A model generated the notes under the pieces. That model searched no databases, was not told where the DNA came from, and saw only the letters and a list, made by a program, of their open reading frames with translations. A stretch of 64,000 bases of DNA from contig NZ_BOOY01000029.1 in the NCBI RefSeq assembly GCF_016863475.1, positions 62,001-126,000 of the forward strand. Reading direction: 5' to 3'. The DNA is from Spirilliplanes yamanashiensis. GTDB lineage: Bacteria > Actinomycetota > Actinomycetes > Mycobacteriales > Micromonosporaceae. A program made the position numbers and the translations under genes. Numbering within the stretch: the stretch's first letter is position 1; each line of letters begins with the position of its first letter. Below are positions 17,633 to 45,901 of this stretch, one piece after another.

Positions 17633-17740
17633 GGATTGCCATTAACGGTAATCCGATAAAGGGCTCGGAGGTGTCCGGGACGAGGCGCGAAAACGGCACA
17701 CCATAATGACAGTTATGTGGTGACAACACACAACTAGTAT
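17633..17740 (+). promoter_or_regulatory. AT-richer promoter region of the endonuclease VII gene with inverted repeats
   Basis: This stretch is visibly poorer in GC than the rest of the window. It holds overlapping inverted repeats (GGATTGCC at 17633-17640 with GGTAATCC at 17647-17654). An imperfect 9-bp repeat pair, AGTTATGTG (17711-17719) and CACACAACT (17727-17735), abuts a -10-like TAGTAT (17735-17740) that is 9 nt before the ATG. Confidence 0.45.
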
Positions 17741-26344: not shown

Positions 26345-27325
26345 TCACCCCTGATGGAGGTCCCGCAACGCGCGGTTCGTCCGCAACGAGCGCACCGCCG
26401 CCCGCTGCTGCGCCCCCGTCACCTCGATGTAACCCTGCGACGTCGTCAAACTCGCATGCCCCAGCAGGCGCATGATCTCCGACGCGTTCGCCCCGTCCTC
26501 CGCCAACCGCGTCGCGAACGTGTGCCGCAACGCATGCAGCTGCGCCCCCCGCGGCACCCGATCCGTCACCCCCGCCCGCCGGAAACACGACTCCACCAGG
26601 TACTGCAACCCGCCTCGCCGCAACGGCGACCCCTGCCGGTCCACGAAGAACACCCCGCCCGGCGCCACCGACCGCGCCCCGAACCGCCGCCGCCGGCTCT
26701 CCAGGAACCCCTCCAGCACCGCGTCCAGCTCGTCCTCCACCGGCACCGACCGCGGCCGCCCACCCTTGCCGCCCACCTCCACCCGCCGCTCACCCGGGCG
26801 CCCCGCCACGTCACCCACCCGCAACCCCAGCAGCTCCGACAGCCGCAACCCCGCACACAACGCCAACGCCAGCACCGCCACGTCCCGCTCCGGCCACGGA
26901 TCCCGCTGCCGCATCTCCTCACCGCGCGCCACCGCCGCCAGCAACCGCTCCGGGGTGTCCTCACCCCGCAACGGCTTCGGCGCCGGCGGCGCCAGCCGCG
27001 GCCGGTCCACCGCCGGCATCGGGTTGCCGTCCGTGCGCCCGTCGGCCACCAGGAACGTGAAGAACCCGTTCCACGTCGACCAGGCCCGCTGCACCGACGC
27101 AGGGGAGCGGTCCGCGGCGAACCGGGCGAAAGCCGCCCGCAGGACCCGCGGTGTCAGGGCGCGCAGGGGAGTGGGGGCGTCATCGCCGCCGGCGACCAGG
27201 GCCAGCACGGCGTCCAGGTCGCGCCGGTACGCCGCCAGGGTGTGCGGGGACGGTTTGCGGGTGGCGCGGGCGGCGAGGAACTCCGCAAACAGCTGCTGTA
27301 CCGGAACGTCCCGTTCGTCCTGCAT
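26345..27325 (-). CDS. Xer-type tyrosine recombinase (integrase)
   Basis: This 326-residue protein has an N-terminal SAM-like DNA-binding domain (FAEFLAARATRKPSPHTLAAYRRDLDAVLAL). Its catalytic domain includes the first Arg in LALCAGLRLSELLGLRVGDV, HALRHTFATRLAEDG (HxxR), LLGHAS and the nucleophile Tyr in TTSQGYIEV. Size and motif set resemble XerC/XerD and lone chromosomal integrases. ATG 27325 is chosen over ATG 27334 because CATAAT (27338-27333, minus strand) lies 7 nt upstream, a leaderless arrangement. Both starts fall inside a 9-bp-arm palindrome. A dif-like site lies 250 bp further away. Composition of the gene changes abruptly near 27.05-27.1 kb. Confidence 0.9.
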   Translation of the reverse strand: MQDERDVPVQQLFAEFLAARATRKPSPHTLAAYRRDLDAVLALVAGGDDAPTPLRALTPRVLRAAFARFAADRSPASVQRAWSTWNGFFTFLVADGRTDGNPMPAVDRPRLAPPAPKPLRGEDTPERLLAAVARGEEMRQRDPWPERDVAVLALALCAGLRLSELLGLRVGDVAGRPGERRVEVGGKGGRPRSVPVEDELDAVLEGFLESRRRRFGARSVAPGGVFFVDRQGSPLRRGGLQYLVESCFRRAGVTDRVPRGAQLHALRHTFATRLAEDGANASEIMRLLGHASLTTSQGYIEVTGAQQRAAVRSLRTNRALRDLHQG

Positions 27326-27342
27326 AAGGAACATTATGCAGG
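27319..27342. promoter_or_regulatory. Palindrome covering the recombinase -10 and start codon (Xer-site-like)
   Basis: CCTGCATAA (27319-27327) and TTATGCAGG (27334-27342) are perfect 9-bp inverted arms around GGAACA. The 6-bp centre and the CATAA/TTATG inner ends follow the architecture of Xer recombination sites. It also contains the gene's -10, so an autoregulatory operator is the alternative. Confidence 0.55.
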
Positions 27343-27593
27343 TTTCCCGGAAGTGGGGCCAGGGGCGACCGACTGGCGTGACGGCTGGTCGCCGCGGTCA
27401 TGCGCACGGGTACGTGCGCGCGCCGAGCTGCCACCCGCGTCGGGCTTCCACATGCGTCGACTCACGCCGGCGCCGCGGGCTCGATGGGCGTCCGGGCCGA
27501 GGGGGCTCGGCATCGGAGCCTGCCTGTGCCACGGGCGACCACCTGATGGATGTGGCCCCGAGCCCCTTCCCGCGACCCGCCCTGACCCGGGTC

Positions 27594-27621
27594 GGTTGAC
27601 ATAATGTCAATTATCGACCCG
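27594..27621 (-). other. Candidate chromosomal dif site (XerC/XerD recombination site)
   Basis: The 28 bp divide as 11+6+11. On the minus strand the left arm is CGGGTCGATAA, the centre TTGACA and the right arm TTATGTCAACC. From memory, the actinobacterial dif consensus has a left arm ending CGATAA, a centre of form TxxACA and a right arm TTATGTCAAGT. The right arm here matches 9 of 11 and the inner part of the left arm is identical. An outer 7-bp inverted repeat (CGGGTCG/CGACCCG) brackets it. It lies in a non-coding region next to a Xer-type recombinase and a strand-composition switch. The inner palindrome TTGACAT-A-ATGTCAA means a repressor operator is the alternative reading. Confidence 0.65.
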
Positions 27622-28267: not shown

Positions 28268-29824
28268 TCAGTTGACGGTGGCGCAAATGGCGTACGCGGT
28301 CACGGTGTTGGAGTTCGTGCCGCCGGCCTTGGTCGCGGTCCACGCGGTGGACGAGGACGGGTAGCTGGCGCTGACGGTCGCGGTGCCGGTGGCGTCGCCG
28401 CCGCCGCCGATGACCTTCTTGCCGCTGGGGCAGGTCGCGACGGCCGTGTTGGTGCCGGAGGCGGTGACGATGACGTGGCCGCTGACCCCGTTGGCGCCGG
28501 CCGCGCCGGTGTCGCCCTTCGGGCCGGTGTCACCCTTGGCGCCGGTCTCGCCCTTGGCGCCCGTGTCGCCCTTCTCGCCGGTGTCGCCCTTGGCCCCGGT
28601 GTCGCCCTTCTCGCCCTGCTCCCCCTGCGGACCAGCCGGGCCCGCCGGGCCGGCCGGACCAACCGGACCCTCGGGGCCGGCCGCGCCGGTCTCACCCTTC
28701 TCGCCGGCCGGGCCCGCCGGGCCCATGGCGCCGGTCTCGCCGGTGTCACCCTTGGCGCCGTCGGCGCCGGCCTGACCGGACTGGCCGGCGTCGCCCTTCT
28801 CGCCCTTGTCGCCGGGCAGACCCTGCTGACCCTGCGGCCCGACCGGACCCTGCGGGCCGACGGCGCCCTGCGCGCCGACCAGGCTGGCGAGGAACTCGGT
28901 CACGGTGCCGCTGGCGTTGCCGTCCAGCGACCGCCACACCTCGAACGCCGACGCGCCGGCCGCACCCGTCTCCCCCGTGTCGCCCTTGGCGCCGTCCTTG
29001 CCGTCGAGGCCGTTCAGGCCGTCCTTGCCGGCCGCGCCGGTCTCGCCCTGGGCGCCCTGGGCGCCCTGGGCGCCCTGGGCGCCGACCAGCGACAGCAGGA
29101 AGTCGTCGACGGTGCCGGTGTGGGTCTGCGCCCACAGCTCGTAGGCGCTCTTGCCGTCGAAGCCGGCCGCACCCGTCGCCCCGGTCTCGCCGGTGGCGCC
29201 CGTGGCACCGGTGGCGCCGGTCTCGCCCTGGGGGCCGACCAGCGAGTTGAGGAAGTCCTCGACCGAGCCGGTGTGGCCGTTGGCGAGCCACAGCTGGTAG
29301 GCGGAGAGGCCGTCGGCGCCGCGCTCGCCGATCAGGGAGGTGAGGAACTCGCCGACGGTGCCCTCGTTGCCCTCCTGCAGCCAGAGCGCGAAGGCGGAGA
29401 GCCCGTCGACGCCGGCGACCCCCTGCGGCCCGGTGGCGCCCGTCGCCCCGGTGGCCCCGGTGGCGCCGGTCCCGCCGGCGATGCCCTGCGGACCGGCAAG
29501 ACCCTGGGGGCCGGCGATGCCCTGCAGGCCCTGGGTGCCGGGGACGCCCTGGAGTCCCTGCAGGCCTTGGAGGCCGCGCGGGCCGGTGGCGCCCTGCGGG
29601 CCGACGCGGTTCCAGGAGAAGAGGTTCTCCTTGGAGGTGCAGCGCTTGCCGCCGGCGTAGTCGATGACGCGGACCTCGCCGGTCTTGTAGGCGGCGCAGG
29701 CGTAGATGATGCCCGAGGTGGTGCCCGCGGTGCGGGTGACGGCGGCGACGGCGGTGCCGCCGCCGAGCAGGACCAGGGACGCCGAGGCGGCGGCGAGGAC
29801 GGTGCGCTTCTTGGGACGGTTCAT
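28268..29824 (-). CDS. Secreted collagen-like protein with interleaved SAxxxW modules
   Basis: The 518-residue protein has an N-terminal hydrophobic segment (about residues 9-29) and a short Cys-containing head (IIYACAAYKTGEVRVIDYAGGKRCTSKENLFSW is split by two Cys). Then come about 360 residues of Gly-X-Y triplets, rich in GAT, GPQ, GET and GDK. The triplets are interrupted four times by a 24-28-residue module. These are LSAFALWLQEG...EFLTSLIG, LSAYQLWLANG...DFLNSLVG, KSAYELWAQTH...DFLLSLVG and SAFEVWRSLDG...EFLASLVG. A C-terminal non-collagen domain of about 85 residues has VATCPSGKKVIGGGGDA and AYAICATVN. It probably forms a surface triple-helical fibre. ATG 29824 is the only start that keeps the signal peptide. 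DNA of the triplet region is repetitive. Confidence 0.9.
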   Translation of the reverse strand: MNRPKKRTVLAAASASLVLLGGGTAVAAVTRTAGTTSGIIYACAAYKTGEVRVIDYAGGKRCTSKENLFSWNRVGPQGATGPRGLQGLQGLQGVPGTQGLQGIAGPQGLAGPQGIAGGTGATGATGATGATGPQGVAGVDGLSAFALWLQEGNEGTVGEFLTSLIGERGADGLSAYQLWLANGHTGSVEDFLNSLVGPQGETGATGATGATGETGATGAAGFDGKSAYELWAQTHTGTVDDFLLSLVGAQGAQGAQGAQGETGAAGKDGLNGLDGKDGAKGDTGETGAAGASAFEVWRSLDGNASGTVTEFLASLVGAQGAVGPQGPVGPQGQQGLPGDKGEKGDAGQSGQAGADGAKGDTGETGAMGPAGPAGEKGETGAAGPEGPVGPAGPAGPAGPQGEQGEKGDTGAKGDTGEKGDTGAKGETGAKGDTGPKGDTGAAGANGVSGHVIVTASGTNTAVATCPSGKKVIGGGGDATGTATVSASYPSSSTAWTATKAGGTNSNTVTAYAICATVN

Positions 29825-30201
29825 CAGCCAGGCCTTCCGGTGGGAGGGAGCGGCTACGGGCGGCGGGGGTGACGCCCGTAGCGGAGGGGGCTCAGCGGCT
29901 GCTCGGAGGTTCTCAGCCGACGACTCGTTCCGACAGGAAGTAACGCTACGTAATGATTGGCCCGGATTGGAAGCCATAAGTCCCGGTTCCGGCCGGCCGG
30001 TTCGCGGCATTCAGCCGTTTTATTCGGGCGTTTGGGCGGCAACGTCGCAGCTGACCACCGCTCGTCACGCCGACGAGTCGCGACCGTCACGGTGGGTAGT
30101 AATGGCGTCAATTCGCAGCGTCACCGTCATGGCGGCGGGGCCGTGTCGGTGGGGTCTGGTAGAACGCTTGGCACAGACGTTCGAAGGTGGGTGGGGCTGG
30201 C
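29825..30201. other. 377-bp divergent intergenic region
   Basis: No gene was found here. It holds the leader of the collagen-like gene with a hairpin at 29854-29881, and an AT-richer stretch at about 29940-30110. That stretch includes TACGTA at 29945-29952, and promoters for both directions must lie there. No defined -10/-35 pair could be assigned with confidence. Confidence 0.5.
29854..29881 (-). promoter_or_regulatory. 5'-UTR hairpin of the collagen-like gene
   Basis: CTACGGGCG (29854-29862) and CGCCCGTAG (29873-29881) are perfect 9-bp arms with a 10-nt loop, 30 nt upstream of the ATG in the probable leader. It could control translation or mRNA stability. Confidence 0.5.
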
Positions 30202-34103: not shown

Positions 34104-34634
34104 TCAGGGGGACGGGCGGCGTTGCCGCAGGTACGCCAGCACCGCCTCGCGGGTGGTGCGCACCCCGAGCAGGGCGCGGGCCTCGGCGATGCGCCGGTTC
34201 GCGGTGCGCAGCGACAGGAATTCCGCCGCGGCCGCCGCCGCGATGGTGTCGCCGGCGGCGAGGCGTTCGAGCAGGGCCCGCTGCTCCGGCACCAGCCGGG
34301 CCACCGGGTCGTCGGCGGTGTCGCCGCCGCCGGTCTCCACCGGGCCCAGCCTGCGCAGGTCGTCGAGCAGGGCCCGGCCGACCACGCCGTCCAGGTCGGC
34401 CACCGCCACCACCCCGGCGCCGCGGGCCGCGGCCAGCACCGCCAGCTGGACGGTGTCCAGGTCGGCCACCCGCCCGTACAGGACCAGCTTGGCGCCGGTG
34501 ACGTCCCACGCCGGGTCGGGCAGCGCGAAGCCCTCCCGGGTGTGCCAGCCGTCGCGCACCAGCGCCCGCAGCACCGCCGACGCCTCGGCGGTGCCGGGCA
34601 CCACGTGCCGGGGGGCGTCCGGCAGCCGGGTCAC
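34104..34634 (-). CDS. Small LuxR-type HTH protein
   Basis: The 176-residue protein overlaps the LAL regulator gene by GTGA. Its N-terminal half (DLDTVQLAVLAAARGAGVVAV, then LDGVVGRALLDDL) looks like a degenerate receiver-like domain without the phospho-Asp pattern. The C-terminus has a LuxR-like HTH (LVPEQRALLERLAAGDTIAAAAAAEFLSLRTANRRIAEARALLGV) followed by TTREAVLAYLRQR. It probably works with the LAL protein encoded just upstream, on the dynamin locus or another target. Confidence 0.75.
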   Translation of the reverse strand: MTRLPDAPRHVVPGTAEASAVLRALVRDGWHTREGFALPDPAWDVTGAKLVLYGRVADLDTVQLAVLAAARGAGVVAVADLDGVVGRALLDDLRRLGPVETGGGDTADDPVARLVPEQRALLERLAAGDTIAAAAAAEFLSLRTANRRIAEARALLGVRTTREAVLAYLRQRRPSP

Positions 34635-37099
34635 GGCCGCACCACCAGAGGAAGCGCCGCGCGGGCGGCGGCCTCGGTGCGGGTGCGGGCGCCCAGCTTG
34701 CGCATGCCCGCCCGGATGTGGGTCTCGACGGTCTCGGTGGACACCCCGAGCTGCCCGGCGATGCGCCGGGTCGGGTTGCCCTGCGCCACCAGCGCCAGGA
34801 CCTCGTGTTCCCGGTCGGTCAGCGACATCCCGTCGGTGCGGGCGCCGCGCACGTCGCGGTGCACCCGGTGCCGGCGCAGCGCCCGCCGGGCCCGGCCGGC
34901 GAGCACGACCAGCCCGGCGGTCTCGGCGAGCGACTCGGCGGCGGTCAGGGCGGCGACGGCGGCCGCCGGGTCGGCCTGGTGGTCGCCCTCGGCGAGCAGG
35001 CAGCGCACCTGTTCGCGGCGGGCGGTGCCCGGCCAGGCGTGCGCGGCGGCGGCGAACCCGGAACCTGTGCGCCAGGCGTGCAGGGTGAGCCGCACCGGTT
35101 CCGGGCCGTCCGGCGCGGTGACCGGGTGGGCGGGGGCGGGGGCGCCGTCGTGCTGGGCCCACCGGGCGGTGATGTGCAGCAGCCCGGCCAGCAGACCGGA
35201 TGCGGTGGATGTGGCGGTGGGTGGGGTGCCGGCCTGGGCGGGTTGGCCGTCGAGCCAGGCGGCCTCGCGGGCCACCCACGCCACGGCGGGCGCGGCCGGG
35301 TCCGCGGCAGCGAGCCGGGCCCGGGCGGCGGTGAGCTGGCCGGTGTCGGCCTCGACCAGGGCGGCCGCGGCGGCGGTGTGGGCGCGGGCGTCGCCCGGCA
35401 GGGACCGGTCGGCCAGGTCGGCGGCGCGGCGCAGCACCTCGTCGAGCGGGGCGCCGGCGTGCAGGGCGTCGCAGAACAGCGCCGCCGCCGCGAACCGGGT
35501 CTGCCACGCGTACGCCAGGTCGGCGGCGCACGCCGCGGCGGCCGCGCGGGCGGCGCCGGCGGCGTCGGTGAGCCGGCCGTCGGTGATCAGGTGGGTGACC
35601 AGCAGCCACGCCGACCAGCGCACCGCCAGGGCGTCGCCGGCAACGGCTTGCAGGTCGTGTTCCCAGCCGGGGGCGCGGCGGGCGGCGCGCACCGCGGCCA
35701 GGGCGGCGGCCAGCCCGGGCGGCACGTCGGCGCGGTGCCGGGCCTCGACAGCGGCGGCGCGGGCGGTCGCGGCGGGCGGGTCGGTGTGCAGGTCGCACAG
35801 CAGCAGCACCCGGTCGCGGGCGGCCACCACCGCGGGCGGGGCGGCGTCCGGGACGGGCTGGACGGCGGCGCGGGCCCCGGCCACGTCGCCGGCCTGCAGC
35901 AGCGCCTCCCCGCGCACGGTGTCGGCCTCGACGCCGAGCACCCCGAGGGTGCCGGGGGCGGTGACCGCGCGGGCGGCGGCGCCGGGCCGGCCGGCGGCCA
36001 GGGCGGCGGCGGCCGCGGCGAGCCGCACCTCGACGGTGGCGGGGGTGCCGGGCAGGTCGCAGGCCAGCAGCAGCGCGTCGGCGCGTTCCCCGCCGGTGGC
36101 GGCGGCCGCGGCGGCGGTCATGGCCGCGGCGTACGCGGCGGCGGTGTCGCCGGCGGCGGCGTGGTGCCGGGCGGCCTCGGCCGGCGGCAGCAGCGGGGCG
36201 AGGCGCGCGTGCAGGGCGCGGCGGGCGTCGGAGTCGAGGATGCGGGCGGCCACCTCGGCGATGTACCCGGAGGTGGGGGTGAGCAGTCCGGCCGCGTCGA
36301 TCGCGGCCAGGCCGGCGTCGACGAGCGACGCGCCGCCGCCCAGCGCGGCCGCCGGGGCGGGGCGGCCGAGCAGGCCGAGCGCGGCCAGGGCGGTGCGGGC
36401 GGGCCGGTCCAGATCGGCCAGGGACACCGCGACGGCCCGGGCCACGTCGTCGCCGTCACCGGTGTCACCGGTGTCACCGGTTCCCGCGAAGCCGTCGAGG
36501 GTGGTGGCCGGGCCGTGGGTGGCGGCGTGCCGGGCCAGGGCCAGCACGGCGGCGGGCAGCCCGCCGGCGCGGGCCACCACGGCGGCGACCGCGGCGTCGG
36601 GCAGCCGCGGGGCGGTGGCGCGGACCAGGTCGGCGGCGGCCGCGCCGGACAGCGGCGGCACCGCCGCCCACAGCGCGGCGGCCGGGCGCAGCGCGTCGAC
36701 CAGCGGTTGCCGGTGCGGGGTGCGCACCGCGGCCAGGATCCGGCAGTGCGCGGCCAGCAGCGGCAGCGCCGCCAGGGTGTCGGCGTCGGCCAGGTGCAGG
36801 TCGTCGACGACGAGCAGGCCGCCGCGCACCCGGGACCGCACCGCCTCGGCCAGCAGCGGCGGGTCACCGGCGGGCAGCCGGGCCCGCACCGCCCGCGCCA
36901 GCGCCACCGCCGGCACCCCGCGCAGCGCGGCCAGGCCACCACCGGCGAACACCGGCCCCGGGAACGCTCCCGCGGTGTCGCGCAGCAGGGTGCTGCGCCC
37001 GCAGCCGGGCGGCCCGGCGACCACCACCAGGCCGGGGCCGCGCAGCAACGGCAGCAGGGCCGGCGCCGTCGCCGGCGGACCGTACGGGCCGGTCGGCAC
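34631..37099 (-). CDS. LAL-type (large ATP-binding LuxR) transcriptional regulator
   Basis: The 822-residue protein starts GTG 37099, with GGAGG six nt upstream. It has a Walker A in VAGPPGCGRSTLL (about residues 27-39) and Walker B in LLVVDDLHLAD (about 101-111). A long Ala-rich TPR-like middle follows. The C-terminal LuxR HTH is LTDREHEVLALVAQGNPTRRIAGQLGVSTETVETHIRAGMRKLG. This is the MalT/LAL architecture, although the 822 residues are near the short end for the class. It is divergent from the dynamin operon across 195 bp. The GDTGDTGD stretch near residue 210 comes from a tandem ACCGGTGTC repeat. Confidence 0.87.
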   Translation of the reverse strand: MPTGPYGPPATAPALLPLLRGPGLVVVAGPPGCGRSTLLRDTAGAFPGPVFAGGGLAALRGVPAVALARAVRARLPAGDPPLLAEAVRSRVRGGLLVVDDLHLADADTLAALPLLAAHCRILAAVRTPHRQPLVDALRPAAALWAAVPPLSGAAAADLVRATAPRLPDAAVAAVVARAGGLPAAVLALARHAATHGPATTLDGFAGTGDTGDTGDGDDVARAVAVSLADLDRPARTALAALGLLGRPAPAAALGGGASLVDAGLAAIDAAGLLTPTSGYIAEVAARILDSDARRALHARLAPLLPPAEAARHHAAAGDTAAAYAAAMTAAAAAATGGERADALLLACDLPGTPATVEVRLAAAAAALAAGRPGAAARAVTAPGTLGVLGVEADTVRGEALLQAGDVAGARAAVQPVPDAAPPAVVAARDRVLLLCDLHTDPPAATARAAAVEARHRADVPPGLAAALAAVRAARRAPGWEHDLQAVAGDALAVRWSAWLLVTHLITDGRLTDAAGAARAAAAACAADLAYAWQTRFAAAALFCDALHAGAPLDEVLRRAADLADRSLPGDARAHTAAAAALVEADTGQLTAARARLAAADPAAPAVAWVAREAAWLDGQPAQAGTPPTATSTASGLLAGLLHITARWAQHDGAPAPAHPVTAPDGPEPVRLTLHAWRTGSGFAAAAHAWPGTARREQVRCLLAEGDHQADPAAAVAALTAAESLAETAGLVVLAGRARRALRRHRVHRDVRGARTDGMSLTDREHEVLALVAQGNPTRRIAGQLGVSTETVETHIRAGMRKLGARTRTEAAARAALPLVVRP

Positions 37100-37294
37100 C
37101 GCGGACCTCCTCCCCCGTCGCCTGTCACGGTGCCGCCCGCCGGGTGCGGTGGCACGAACCTGGGATCCTGCGCCGACGAGTTGTTCGTAGGGTGGGTGGC
37201 ACGGCAGGCGGCCCCGCCCTGCCCGTGGGGACCGGGAGAGGACGTCCGTCGTGGTCATGCCATTGTCGCCGACAGCACGCGTGGCAGGCGAGTC

Positions 37295-38830
37295 GTGACG
37301 GCGGGACCCCTGTCCGCGCAGGTCGCCCAGCTGTGTGACGCGGCCGCCGCCGCGGCCGGCCCGCAGGCCGCCGAGCAGGTACGACACGTGCGGCGCCGCC
37401 TCGACGAACCGCTGCGGGTGGCCATCGCCGGTCGCCTGAAAGCCGGAAAGTCGACACTGGTGAACGCGGTCGTCGGCCGGCGCATCGCCCCCACCGAGGC
37501 CGGCGAGTGCACCCGGGTGGTGACCGTGTTCCGGTACGGCACCGCCGACCGGGTCGACGTGGTGCGCCGCGACGGCACCCGCACCAGCCTGCCGCTGGAC
37601 GCCGACGGGATGGTGCCGCAGCGCCTCGGGGTCCCGCCGGCGCAGGTCGCGCACGTCGACGTGCACGTCACCAGCGACCGGCTGCGCGACCTCACCGTGG
37701 TCGACACCCCCGGGCTGTCGTCCACCAGCACCGCCGTCAGCGACCGCGCCCGCGCCGTGCTGGGCGCCGCCACAGCTCAGGCGACCGGCCAGGCCACCGG
37801 GGCGCCGTTCGACGACGGCATCGACGACGACTCCGCCGCCGCGGTCAGCGGCGCCGAGGCCGTCGTGTACGTGTTCAGCCAGGGGGTGCGCGCCGACGAC
37901 GTGCAGGCCCTGGAGGCGTTCCGGGCGGCGTCGGCGCGGCTGGCCAGCAACCCGCTCAACGCCCTCGGCGTGCTCAGCAAGGTCGACACCCTGGTGCCGG
38001 GCGCCGCCGACCCGTGGCCGGTGGCCGGGCCGCTCGCCGCCGACCAGGCGCAGGTGCTGCGCCGCAGCGTCTCCGACGTGGTGCCGGTCGTGGGGCTGCT
38101 CGCCGAGACCGCCGAGGCGGGCCGGCTCACCGCCGCCGACGTGGAGGCGCTGCGCGCCATCGCCGAGCTGCCCGCCGCGCAGCAGCTGCTGATGCTCAGC
38201 TCCGTCGACCTGTTCACCGGCCGCGCCGCCCCCGTCGCCACCGACCGCCGGCGCCGGCTGGTGGAACTGCTCGGCCTGTACGGGGCCGGGTTCGCCCTCG
38301 CCCAGCTTGCCGCGCAGCCCCGCCTGGCCAGCGGCGACCTGGTGCGGCTGCTGTGCCAGGTGTCCGGGCTGCCCCGGCTGCGCCAGACCCTCGACGAGCA
38401 GGTCCGGTGGCGGTCCGACGCCATCAAGGCCGGGTGGGCGCTGTCGGCGCTGGAACGCCTCGCCGGGCACGCCGCCGACCCCGCCGACCGGGAACTGCTG
38501 CGCGACGCCATCGAACGGCTGCTGCGCGAACCCGCCTACCACCGGCTGCGGGTGCTGGAGGCGGCGCAGCAGGTCGCCACCGGGGCGGTGCCGCTGCCCG
38601 AGCCGATGCGCCACGAACTGACCCGGCTGGCCACCCTGCAGGACCCTGCGGCGATCCTGCAGCTGCCGCAGGCCCCGCCGTGGGCGCTCGCCGACGCCGC
38701 CGTGCAGGCCGCCACCCGGTGGCGGGTGTACGCCGTCGGCGGCGCCAGCCCCGCCCAGGCCCGCGTCGCGCACGTCGTGCACCGCGGGTTCCACCTGCTG
38801 TCGCAGAACCTGCGGGCGGCGGTGTCATGA
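37295..38830 (+). CDS. Dynamin-like GTPase (first of tandem pair)
   Basis: The 511-residue protein has a P-loop in AGRLKAGKSTLVNAVVG (about residues 44-60), the switch Thr region ECTRVVTVFRYG, DTPGLSS (about 136-142) and SKVDTL (about 228, the N/TKxD guanine motif with Ser in first position). A helical stalk region without clear membrane helices follows. The start GTG 37295 is the best available in frame. It overlaps the second GTPase gene by ATGA. In Streptomyces a comparable pair (DynA/DynB) stabilises sporulation septa and in mycobacteria IniA/IniC is related, so a membrane-remodelling role is likely. Confidence 0.87.
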   Translation: MTAGPLSAQVAQLCDAAAAAAGPQAAEQVRHVRRRLDEPLRVAIAGRLKAGKSTLVNAVVGRRIAPTEAGECTRVVTVFRYGTADRVDVVRRDGTRTSLPLDADGMVPQRLGVPPAQVAHVDVHVTSDRLRDLTVVDTPGLSSTSTAVSDRARAVLGAATAQATGQATGAPFDDGIDDDSAAAVSGAEAVVYVFSQGVRADDVQALEAFRAASARLASNPLNALGVLSKVDTLVPGAADPWPVAGPLAADQAQVLRRSVSDVVPVVGLLAETAEAGRLTAADVEALRAIAELPAAQQLLMLSSVDLFTGRAAPVATDRRRRLVELLGLYGAGFALAQLAAQPRLASGDLVRLLCQVSGLPRLRQTLDEQVRWRSDAIKAGWALSALERLAGHAADPADRELLRDAIERLLREPAYHRLRVLEAAQQVATGAVPLPEPMRHELTRLATLQDPAAILQLPQAPPWALADAAVQAATRWRVYAVGGASPAQARVAHVVHRGFHLLSQNLRAAVS

Positions 38831-44956: not shown

Positions 44957-45901
44957 TCAACCCCGGGCGCGGGCCGCCGCGATCGTGTACGCCGGGTCCC
45001 GGTCCAGGTTGTGCCGGTCCCGGTCGTACCGGCGGGTCGTGCGCGGATCCGCGTGCCCCATCGCGTCCTGCACGTCCTCCAGCGCCACCCCCGCGTCCCG
45101 GGCCGCCGTCGCGAACGCGTGCCGCAGCGAGTGCGGCGACAACCGCGCCCACCCCGCGATGCCCGCGTCCCGCGCCAACCGGCGCACCAGCCGGAACACC
45201 GCGTGCCGGTCCAGGCGCCCACCACCCGACGTCACCAGCAGCGGCCCCGCCGCCCGGCCGGCCAGCACCGCGTCCACCGCCGCCGCCGCACCCGGCGTCA
45301 GCACCCGCCGGCGGGCCCGGCCACCCTTGCCGGTGAACCGCACCACCCGGTGCCCCCGCTCCACCCCCAGGTCCGTCACGTCCAGCGAGCACAGCTCACC
45401 CACCCGCAACCCCAGGTCCGCCAGCAGCGTCACCGCCGCCAGGTCCCGCGCCGCCGTCGGGCCCGTGCGCACGGCCGCCGCCGCCAGCAACGCCGCCACC
45501 TCCGGGCCGGTCAGCCCCACCGTCGCCGAATGGTCCCGCGACACCTGCGGCCGGTCCGCGCCACCCACCGGGTTCGCGTCCACCGCCCGCAGCTTCGCCA
45601 GGAACGCGTACCACGACGACACCCCCGACAGCTTGCGCGCCACCGTCGCCGCCGTCAGCGTCCGCTCCAGACCCCGGGCGTACGCGTTCACGTCCAGAAA
45701 CGACGCCCGCAACGGATCCAGGTCCCGCTCCGCGCACCACGCCAGCCAGCCCGCCACATCCCGCCGGTACGCCGCCCGGGTGTGCTCCGACAACCGCCGG
45801 TTCGCCAGCCACGCCTCCGTGACCTGCTCCGCGGCGCCCACCGCGGCCACCTCACCCGCCTGCCGCGGCACCAGCGCCGTGATCGTCTCCACGGCGTTCA
45901 T
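44957..45901 (-). CDS. Second tyrosine recombinase (integrase)
   Basis: The 314-residue protein has an N-terminal core-binding domain (TEAWLANRRLSEHTRAAYRRDVAGWLAW) and a full catalytic domain. The first Arg is in LADLGLRVGELCSLDV, followed by SPHSLRHAFATAARDAG, AMGHADPRTTRRYDRD with the Tyr nucleophile, and a short C-terminal tail YTIAAARARG. It differs clearly from the recombinase at 26.3-27.3 kb. ATG 45901 avoids overlap with the upstream peptidase gene; GTG 45931 is possible. No att site or cargo is visible nearby. Confidence 0.87.
   Translation of the reverse strand: MNAVETITALVPRQAGEVAAVGAAEQVTEAWLANRRLSEHTRAAYRRDVAGWLAWCAERDLDPLRASFLDVNAYARGLERTLTAATVARKLSGVSSWYAFLAKLRAVDANPVGGADRPQVSRDHSATVGLTGPEVAALLAAAAVRTGPTAARDLAAVTLLADLGLRVGELCSLDVTDLGVERGHRVVRFTGKGGRARRRVLTPGAAAAVDAVLAGRAAGPLLVTSGGGRLDRHAVFRLVRRLARDAGIAGWARLSPHSLRHAFATAARDAGVALEDVQDAMGHADPRTTRRYDRDRHNLDRDPAYTIAAARARG

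Follow-up and report, generated by a model that had tools for sequence, protein, structure and literature searches.

The 64,000-bp window analysed here (positions 62001-126000 of contig 29 in the 6.50-Mb, 59-contig assembly of Spirilliplanes yamanashiensis) carries a 28-bp candidate dif site beside a gene for a Xer-type recombinase. We asked whether this site is the dimer-resolution site of the chromosome and what the neighbouring recombinase, designated Xer3, might act on. Comparison with relatives pointed to a terminus with two side-by-side Xer systems, XerCD/dif and an adjacent single-recombinase pair made up of Xer3 and a second site, designated sym. We consider this arrangement, in which Xer3/sym would be a second dimer resolver, to be probable. 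The features are listed in Table 1.

Table 1. Positions of the features discussed, numbered from the first letter of the window
Feature	Position	Strand	Remarks
dif, canonical actinobacterial XerC/XerD site (predicted)	27594-27621	-	11+6+11; consensus match, single copy
sym-dif interval, 249 bp	27345-27593		without assigned gene
sym, near-palindromic 11+6+11 Xer-type site	27317-27344		overlaps xer3 start; conserved type in relatives
xer3, third Xer-type tyrosine recombinase	26345-27334	-	catalytic residues intact
Fourth Xer-like recombinase	44957-45871	-	~18 kb from dif
Palindrome with CACCATAATGACAGTTATGTG	17696-17723		
Open frame with collagen-like Gly-X-Y repeats	28268-30010	-	a bit past dif
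Open frame with dynamin-type GTPase domain	34502-38827	+	

The dif site and its chromosomal position

On the minus strand the site reads CGGGTCGATAA / TTGACA / TTATGTCAACC, letter for letter the 28-mer of 11+6+11 architecture that an earlier note on this DNA had singled out. It matched the actinobacterial consensus CGATAATNNACATTATGTCAA with 0 mismatches, the left arm ending in CGATAA and the right arm beginning with TTATGTCAA, as in actinobacterial dif sites. The consensus matched the window only here at ≤3 mismatches, and 100 dinucleotide-preserving shuffles of the window gave 0 matches. A search of the whole assembly at ≤3 mismatches recovered one copy, as the earlier note had anticipated for a chromosomal dif, and no second copy flanking an element (as in IMEX). 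An excerpt of Kono 2011 (PMC3025954) suggests CACGCCGATAATGCACATTATGTCAAGT as the dif of Frankia alni and describes actinobacterial dif as then without any experimental confirmation; compared by eye with that suggested site, the site in the window was identical at 21 of 28 positions (left arm 8/11, spacer 4/6, right arm 9/11).

We next turned to relatives. The site was present at ≤2 mismatches in 243 of 300 genomes of the family, compared with 2/300 for a backward-pattern control, and in 236 of 295 genomes of the class; among the family matches listed, only G045 had two. No dif was found at ≤2 mismatches in 32 rows of family f17, genus g64, of the class survey (count by eye). In family genomes whose dif lay beyond two mismatches, a looser pattern (2 or 3 mismatches) located dif-like sequences by eye ~0.4-0.6 kb 5' of Xer3 in G151, G199, G213, G227 and G231 and found no dif-like sequence 5' of Xer3 in G163. 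In all 47 relatives sampled (46 single-contig genomes and G100, with three contigs; sizes rounded to 0.1 Mb), the distance from dif to dnaA was 0.419-0.499 of the genome length, with a median of 0.485, which places the site opposite dnaA in these relatives. The consensus match, single copy, conservation and position in relatives support the proposal that the site is an ordinary XerC/XerD chromosome dimer-resolution site, on which a heterotetramer of XerC and XerD, with genes at other places in the genome, would act. In sequence, 11+6+11 architecture, copy number and position opposite dnaA in relatives it is no different from the XerC/XerD-dif of Actinobacteria; the difference is the Xer3/sym pair alongside.

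The 7-bp inverted repeat CGGGTCG/CGACCCG that had been described as bracketing the site is present at 27588-27594 and 27615-27621, but all seven pairs occur in only 1 of 85 distinct dif loci, the other 84 having 0 to 4 of 7, and it was rejected as a conserved dif feature. In genera g12, g17 and g39 of the family, the sampled genomes contained neither dif (≤2 mismatches) nor Xer3, and the looser dif pattern gave scattered 3-mismatch matches only, among the matches listed; these genera may have linear chromosomes or a dif that has diverged strongly.

The recombinase beside dif

The listed open reading frame of xer3 starts 260 bp from dif, close to the 250 bp given in the earlier note; comparison with relatives by eye suggests that translation may really begin at the ATG at 27325. 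The gene is of the Xer type, as had been recognized, but the tree placed its product outside XerC and XerD. Xer3 scored 168.9 of 335 bits against NCBIfam TIGR02224 (XerC) and 149.4 of 330 bits against TIGR02225 (XerD), both below the equivalog cut-off. Since the XerC-like gene of the same genome, which also encodes a XerD-like fragment truncated where a contig ends, itself fell under the cut-off (307 of 335), the tree weighs more than the model scores for the identity of Xer3. The tree, a quick one with 77 proteins, had SH-aLRT as its only support measure and was rooted with the XerC/XerD rows. Xer3 and its plasmid relatives formed one branch of 62 rows there (SH-aLRT 98), to which neither XerC/XerD nor the fourth Xer-like gene of the window belonged; L101, labelled canonical beforehand, was grouped with that fourth gene. 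By sequence, the neighbouring recombinase is thus a third Xer.

Residues R164, K190, H267, R270, H293 and Y302 of Xer3 were invariant in alignments of 22 and 44 sequences; they make up the tyrosine-recombinase catalytic set R-K-H-R-H-Y. An AlphaFold2 model (mean pLDDT 89, pTM 0.72) had Brujita integrase, XerA, XerD and XerH among its top structure matches, and the closest solved relative by sequence was E. coli XerD. Archaeal XerA and the Brujita phage integrase have the two-domain 'simple' tyrosine recombinase fold in common with Xer3, but they share 20-25% identity with it in structure alignments and belong to other hosts and other sites.

Distribution of Xer3 and its linkage to dif

Xer3 was detected at E ≤1e-40 in 217 of the 300 family genomes, representing 20 of 44 genera, and by profile at E ≤1e-60 in 27 of 295 class genomes. 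Two of the latter, G302 and G477 (f2), carried a Xer3 of the plasmid-type branch (loci L296 and L297), far from dif, on other contigs or 3 Mb away. The loci named below are those of the best 80 of 476 relatives, which came from Micromonosporaceae, Pseudonocardiaceae, Nocardiopsidaceae, Kribbella, Kineococcus, Stackebrandtia, Acidimicrobiia and others; the nearest named relatives among them were from Couchioplanes, Paractinoplanes and Actinoplanes, which points to Micromonosporaceae as the family of the genome.

A dif site (≤4 mismatches) was found in 60 of these best 80 loci (of 476), one in each and all 5' of Xer3: 22/22 in Micromonosporaceae, 13/13 in Nocardiopsidaceae, 19/24 in the Pseudonocardiaceae group, 3/3 in Kribbella, 2/2 in Stackebrandtia and Actinorhabdospora, 1/1 in Kineococcus and 0/15 in the remaining taxa, with which L177, cut at the gene, was counted rather than with the Micromonosporaceae. 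The strand of dif was that of Xer3 in Micromonosporaceae and mostly the opposite one elsewhere. Linkage inside Micromonosporaceae is weak evidence, because the terminus is generally syntenic there (four other genes of the window were neighbours of dif in 10 to 13 of the 13 genomes compared); it was set aside as proof of function, and comparison between families was therefore used. An open reading frame other than Xer3 (E ≤1e-25, ≥100 bits, mostly within 10 kb) was shared by 4 of 312 locus pairs between Nocardiopsidaceae and the Pseudonocardiaceae group, 39 of 286 between Micromonosporaceae and Nocardiopsidaceae, and 86 of 528 between Micromonosporaceae and the Pseudonocardiaceae group.

In the four Xer3 loci of Saccharopolyspora and Actinopolyspora and in 8 of 10 Acidimicrobiia loci, neither dif nor sym was found within at most 10 kb on each side, and the other two Acidimicrobiia loci had palindromes 3.2 and 7.7 kb from Xer3 and no dif. 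No convincing AT-rich palindrome with a 6-bp centre was found near the Xer3 start in these three groups (1.5 kb before to 0.15 kb after; L173 contains a run of N).

A second, near-palindromic site between dif and xer3

The sym site, absent from the earlier note, reads GTCCTGCATAA GGAACA TTATGCAGGTT on the plus strand, lies at an offset of 277 bp from dif and is the more symmetric of the two, with 9 of 11 arm positions paired. The palindrome was first noticed in Xer3 loci without a normal dif, and its form in relatives is TTCATGCATAA-N6-TTATGCATGAA. Sites of this type in which 7 or more of the 11 arm positions are paired were present in 62 of 79 named loci (best 80 of 476, leaving out L177). 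In a symmetry-blind scan every TAA-N6-TTA was taken, so that sites were not chosen by dyad. Among the 60 dif-bearing loci of the best 80 of 476, exactly one such core lay between dif and Xer3 in 57 and none in 3 (89 kb in total); the order was dif-sym-Xer3 in 57/57 loci with both sites, at a dif-sym offset of 256-1340 bp, and complementarity of the outer arm positions was at least 4 of 8 in all 57 cores and complete (8/8) in 11. Outside the interval only two cores were found in 1.09 Mb, with 1 and 3 of 8 outer pairs. Two of the three core-less loci, L105 and L122, contained a degenerate sym by eye.

A class survey yielded 24 Xer3 genomes outside the family, and wider stretches were taken for 20 of them. 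Fourteen of the 20 had dif (≤4 mismatches), and all 14 had sym (5 to 8 of 8 outer pairs) 283-951 bp from dif and between dif and Xer3. Both sites were also present in the 4-kb loci of G353 and G590 (L283 and L287); the other two of the 24 were the plasmid-type G302 and G477.

Sym lies near the gene and has inverted arms suited to one protein. Its position is also one that an operator could take, through which Xer3 or another dimeric regulator would control xer3, with Xer3 acting at dif or elsewhere. Of the 20 Micromonosporaceae loci that had the site, 19 had it starting 10 bp before the match start, where it overlaps the start codon. The distance was 59-370 bp in 16 of 20 loci from the Pseudonocardiaceae group, and 69-377 bp in 8 of 12 plasmid loci, with the site again preceding the match start. 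However, sym was 3.5-6.9 kb from Xer3 in eight named loci and yet 0.28-0.70 kb from dif (in L148, 6.9 and 0.7 kb, respectively), and in L358 and L360 dif and sym lay together past the opposite, 3' end of Xer3. The position of sym follows dif, not merely the xer3 start. The 11+6+11 form with inner ATAA/TTAT, moreover, is that of a Xer recombination site, and we regard a role as operator only as unlikely.

Co-occurrence and arm covariation of sym and Xer3

To examine co-occurrence, the 300 family genomes were searched for TGCATAA-N6-TTATGCA with ≤1 mismatch. Xer3 and sym occurred together in 195 genomes, Xer3 only in 22, sym only in 7 and neither in 76; for the 243 dif-bearing genomes the counts were 191, 16, 6 and 30, and with one genome per genus they were 15, 5, 2 and 22 (Fisher p 7e-6, genera not being independent). 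Neither Xer3 nor sym was present in those 30 of 243 dif-bearing genomes, and the second system would therefore be dispensable.

Several of the 'Xer3 only' genera had diverged, still symmetric sites, such as TTTCCACATAA-CTACCC-TTATGTGGAAA in L090. No sym-type site was found in the loci L086, L089 and L091; a wider stretch from G069, of the genus of L086, contained one core with 5 of 8 outer pairs. Three 'sym only' genomes (G115, G174 and G198) belong to genus g4, where Xer3 is usual, and we suspect that contig breaks account for its absence. Around dif of the Xer3-less loci L014 and L015 (3 kb) and genome G063 (55 kb) no further core was found, and the 55 kb around dif of the Xer3-less G087 contained two, one of which, 449 bp from dif, had only 2 of 8 outer pairs.

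Arm covariation was assessed in 44 distinct sites from the symmetry-blind scan. The arms were paired in 84.3% of cells, compared with 20.2-39.4% in slid registers; the covariation score was reached by 13 of 500 shuffles and the percentage paired by 53 of 500. Covariation is thus moderate in sites chosen without a dyad criterion. In 26 diverse sites, selected partly by dyad score, 88.5% of cells were paired (29.6-44.8% when slid), and neither measure was reached in any of 500 shuffles. Such covariation fits the binding of both arms by one protein.

Plasmid and provirus relatives

Relatives of Xer3 with <60% identity were found on 60 plasmid records, mostly from Mycobacterium, Rhodococcus and Mycolicibacterium, with 36-45% identity among the matches listed (40 of 60). 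The palindrome in the eight plasmid loci mentioned above was similar to sym (8 to 11 of 11 positions paired), and no similar palindrome was found in the other 4 of 12. A phage collection gave one weak Xer3 match, and PADLOC gave no match. The viral contig L411 contained an exact CATGCATAA-N6-TTATGCATG and, in the stretch taken, no dif at ≤3 mismatches. Three predicted proviruses from IMG/VR (L412, L413 and L414; 57-82 kb) carried dif-sym-Xer3 at one end, with one exact dif each, which suggests phage-like DNA adjoining the terminus module.

Relatives on large plasmids of the three genera, often with a similar adjoining palindrome, and three predicted provirus contigs ending in the module speak for an origin from a mobile element or plasmid, with the module (a plasmid dimer-resolution cassette, or an element integrated at dif) surviving as a domesticated remnant that has no chromosomal role. 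Such a remnant is nevertheless improbable: the 217 family genomes with Xer3 have one match each, the catalytic residues are invariant, the Xer3 tree mostly tracks taxonomy, and the single dif of the S. yamanashiensis genome has no flanking copies.

Genomes without dif

Six f15 genomes (G342, G417, G478, G520, G563 and G577) had Xer3 and no dif at ≤2 mismatches genome-wide or at ≤4 mismatches in a 16-20 kb stretch. Five of the six kept sym (5 to 8 of 8 outer pairs), and in the sixth a degraded site (3 of 8) lay at a similar place. The GC skew of the long contigs of G417 and G478, sampled in 20-kb pieces, was positive on average before the module and negative after it, with means of 0.013 and -0.025 in one (16 and 4 samples, p 0.007) and 0.016 and -0.020 in the other (6 and 14 samples, p 0.005). 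The best skew split fell at the module in G478 and at 765 kb in G417, about 70 kb off the module at ~692-697 kb. The small skews of these two contigs suggest that the module is at the terminus in these two genomes. In G549, a seventh candidate, dif was present at 3 mismatches, and the six genomes may therefore have a more diverged dif elsewhere.

These genomes also bear on whether Xer3 acts at dif, as a third partner or as a substitute for XerC/XerD, with sym being secondary. Xer3 is close to dif in several families, and the inner ATAA-N6-TTAT core is common to sym and dif. Against this, Xer3 and sym are kept in genomes without dif at ≤2 mismatches, 36 of the 243 family genomes with dif have no Xer3, and the arms of sym and of the plasmid sites are unlike those of dif; we consider action at dif quite improbable. 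Plain terminus synteny without a functional tie could account for conserved neighbours of dif such as the four other genes in Micromonosporaceae, but we give it very little weight, since other genes are seldom common between families, whereas the dif-sym-Xer3 order held in all 57 loci (best 80 of 476), whichever way dif was oriented.

Two proposed Xer systems side by side

Returning to the reading in which Xer3 has its own site, we think it very likely from the sequence comparisons that Xer3 acts at sym, ~0.25 kb from dif. Because the sym arms are nearly identical, one protein could bind both. Xer3 would then form a homotetramer on the site and recombine it, much as XerH, XerS, XerL or Cre do, and the polarity of the site would come from its unequal 6-bp centre. 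Xer3/sym may provide a second dimer-resolution route at the terminus, alongside XerCD/dif or replacing it, possibly under FtsK control; that dimer resolution is its purpose we favour slightly. A wider proposal, in which many actinobacteria have two independent terminus dimer-resolution systems a few hundred bp apart, and Xer3/sym took over after dif loss in at least one f15 lineage, the handover being part-way, is put forward only tentatively.

Known systems offer partial parallels. In the excerpts consulted of PMC9765430 and PMC5357621, which cover XerS/difSL, XerH/difH and the XerL/dif of Legionellales, the first two have the site near the gene, and long inverted arms are reported for XerL sites. 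Xer3/sym resembles these systems as excerpted in pairing a single Xer-type recombinase with a site close by and, like XerL, in its long inverted arms. Each is described there as the only Xer system of its host, whereas Xer3/sym is not the sole chromosomal Xer system but accompanies a normal dif and XerC-like and XerD-like genes in the same genome. Plasmid R27, with a self-encoded Y-Rec and a XerCD site, is presented in an excerpt of PMC11724359 as having two redundant systems. As far as that excerpt goes, the likeness lies in two parallel dimer-resolution systems on one replicon, and plasmid relatives of Xer3 often have a similar site; unlike those of R27, Xer3/sym and dif lie on chromosomes at a distance of a few hundred bp, and their conservation extends across families. 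A broad classification of tyrosine recombinases (PMC8138268) mentions no Xer3-like subgroup in the part available. Among the open PMC papers listed, preprints not included, we came across neither a third dif-linked Xer nor a second palindromic site beside dif in Actinobacteria, which is not proof of absence.

In the literature as excerpted, chromosome dimers are resolved by the XerCD pair or by a single Xer; with a conserved Xer3/sym next to dif, one chromosome would have two systems. If this is true, how XerCD comes to be replaced by single-recombinase systems and whether both are under FtsK control could be studied in a natural setting, for which filamentous, sporulating antibiotic producers would serve as the test bed. 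The arrangement would also tie a chromosomal system to a probable dimer-resolution family of large actinobacterial plasmids.

Other features of the window

Of 61 family genomes searched, 60 had a relative of the fourth Xer-like gene, mostly at 2-66 kb from dif as judged by eye (176 kb in G256). The gene was rejected as a second dif-linked recombinase, the surrounding genes being about equally conserved, and no TAA-N6-TTA core was found in 30 loci of this gene (L242-L271). The palindrome with CACCATAATGACAGTTATGTG had close copies in the terminus stretches of G122, G003 and G087 (L302, L336 and L333, respectively) and is possibly an operator before a small gene. The collagen-like open frame lies a bit past dif, and the frame with the dynamin-type GTPase domain was near dif in 10 of 13 family genomes.
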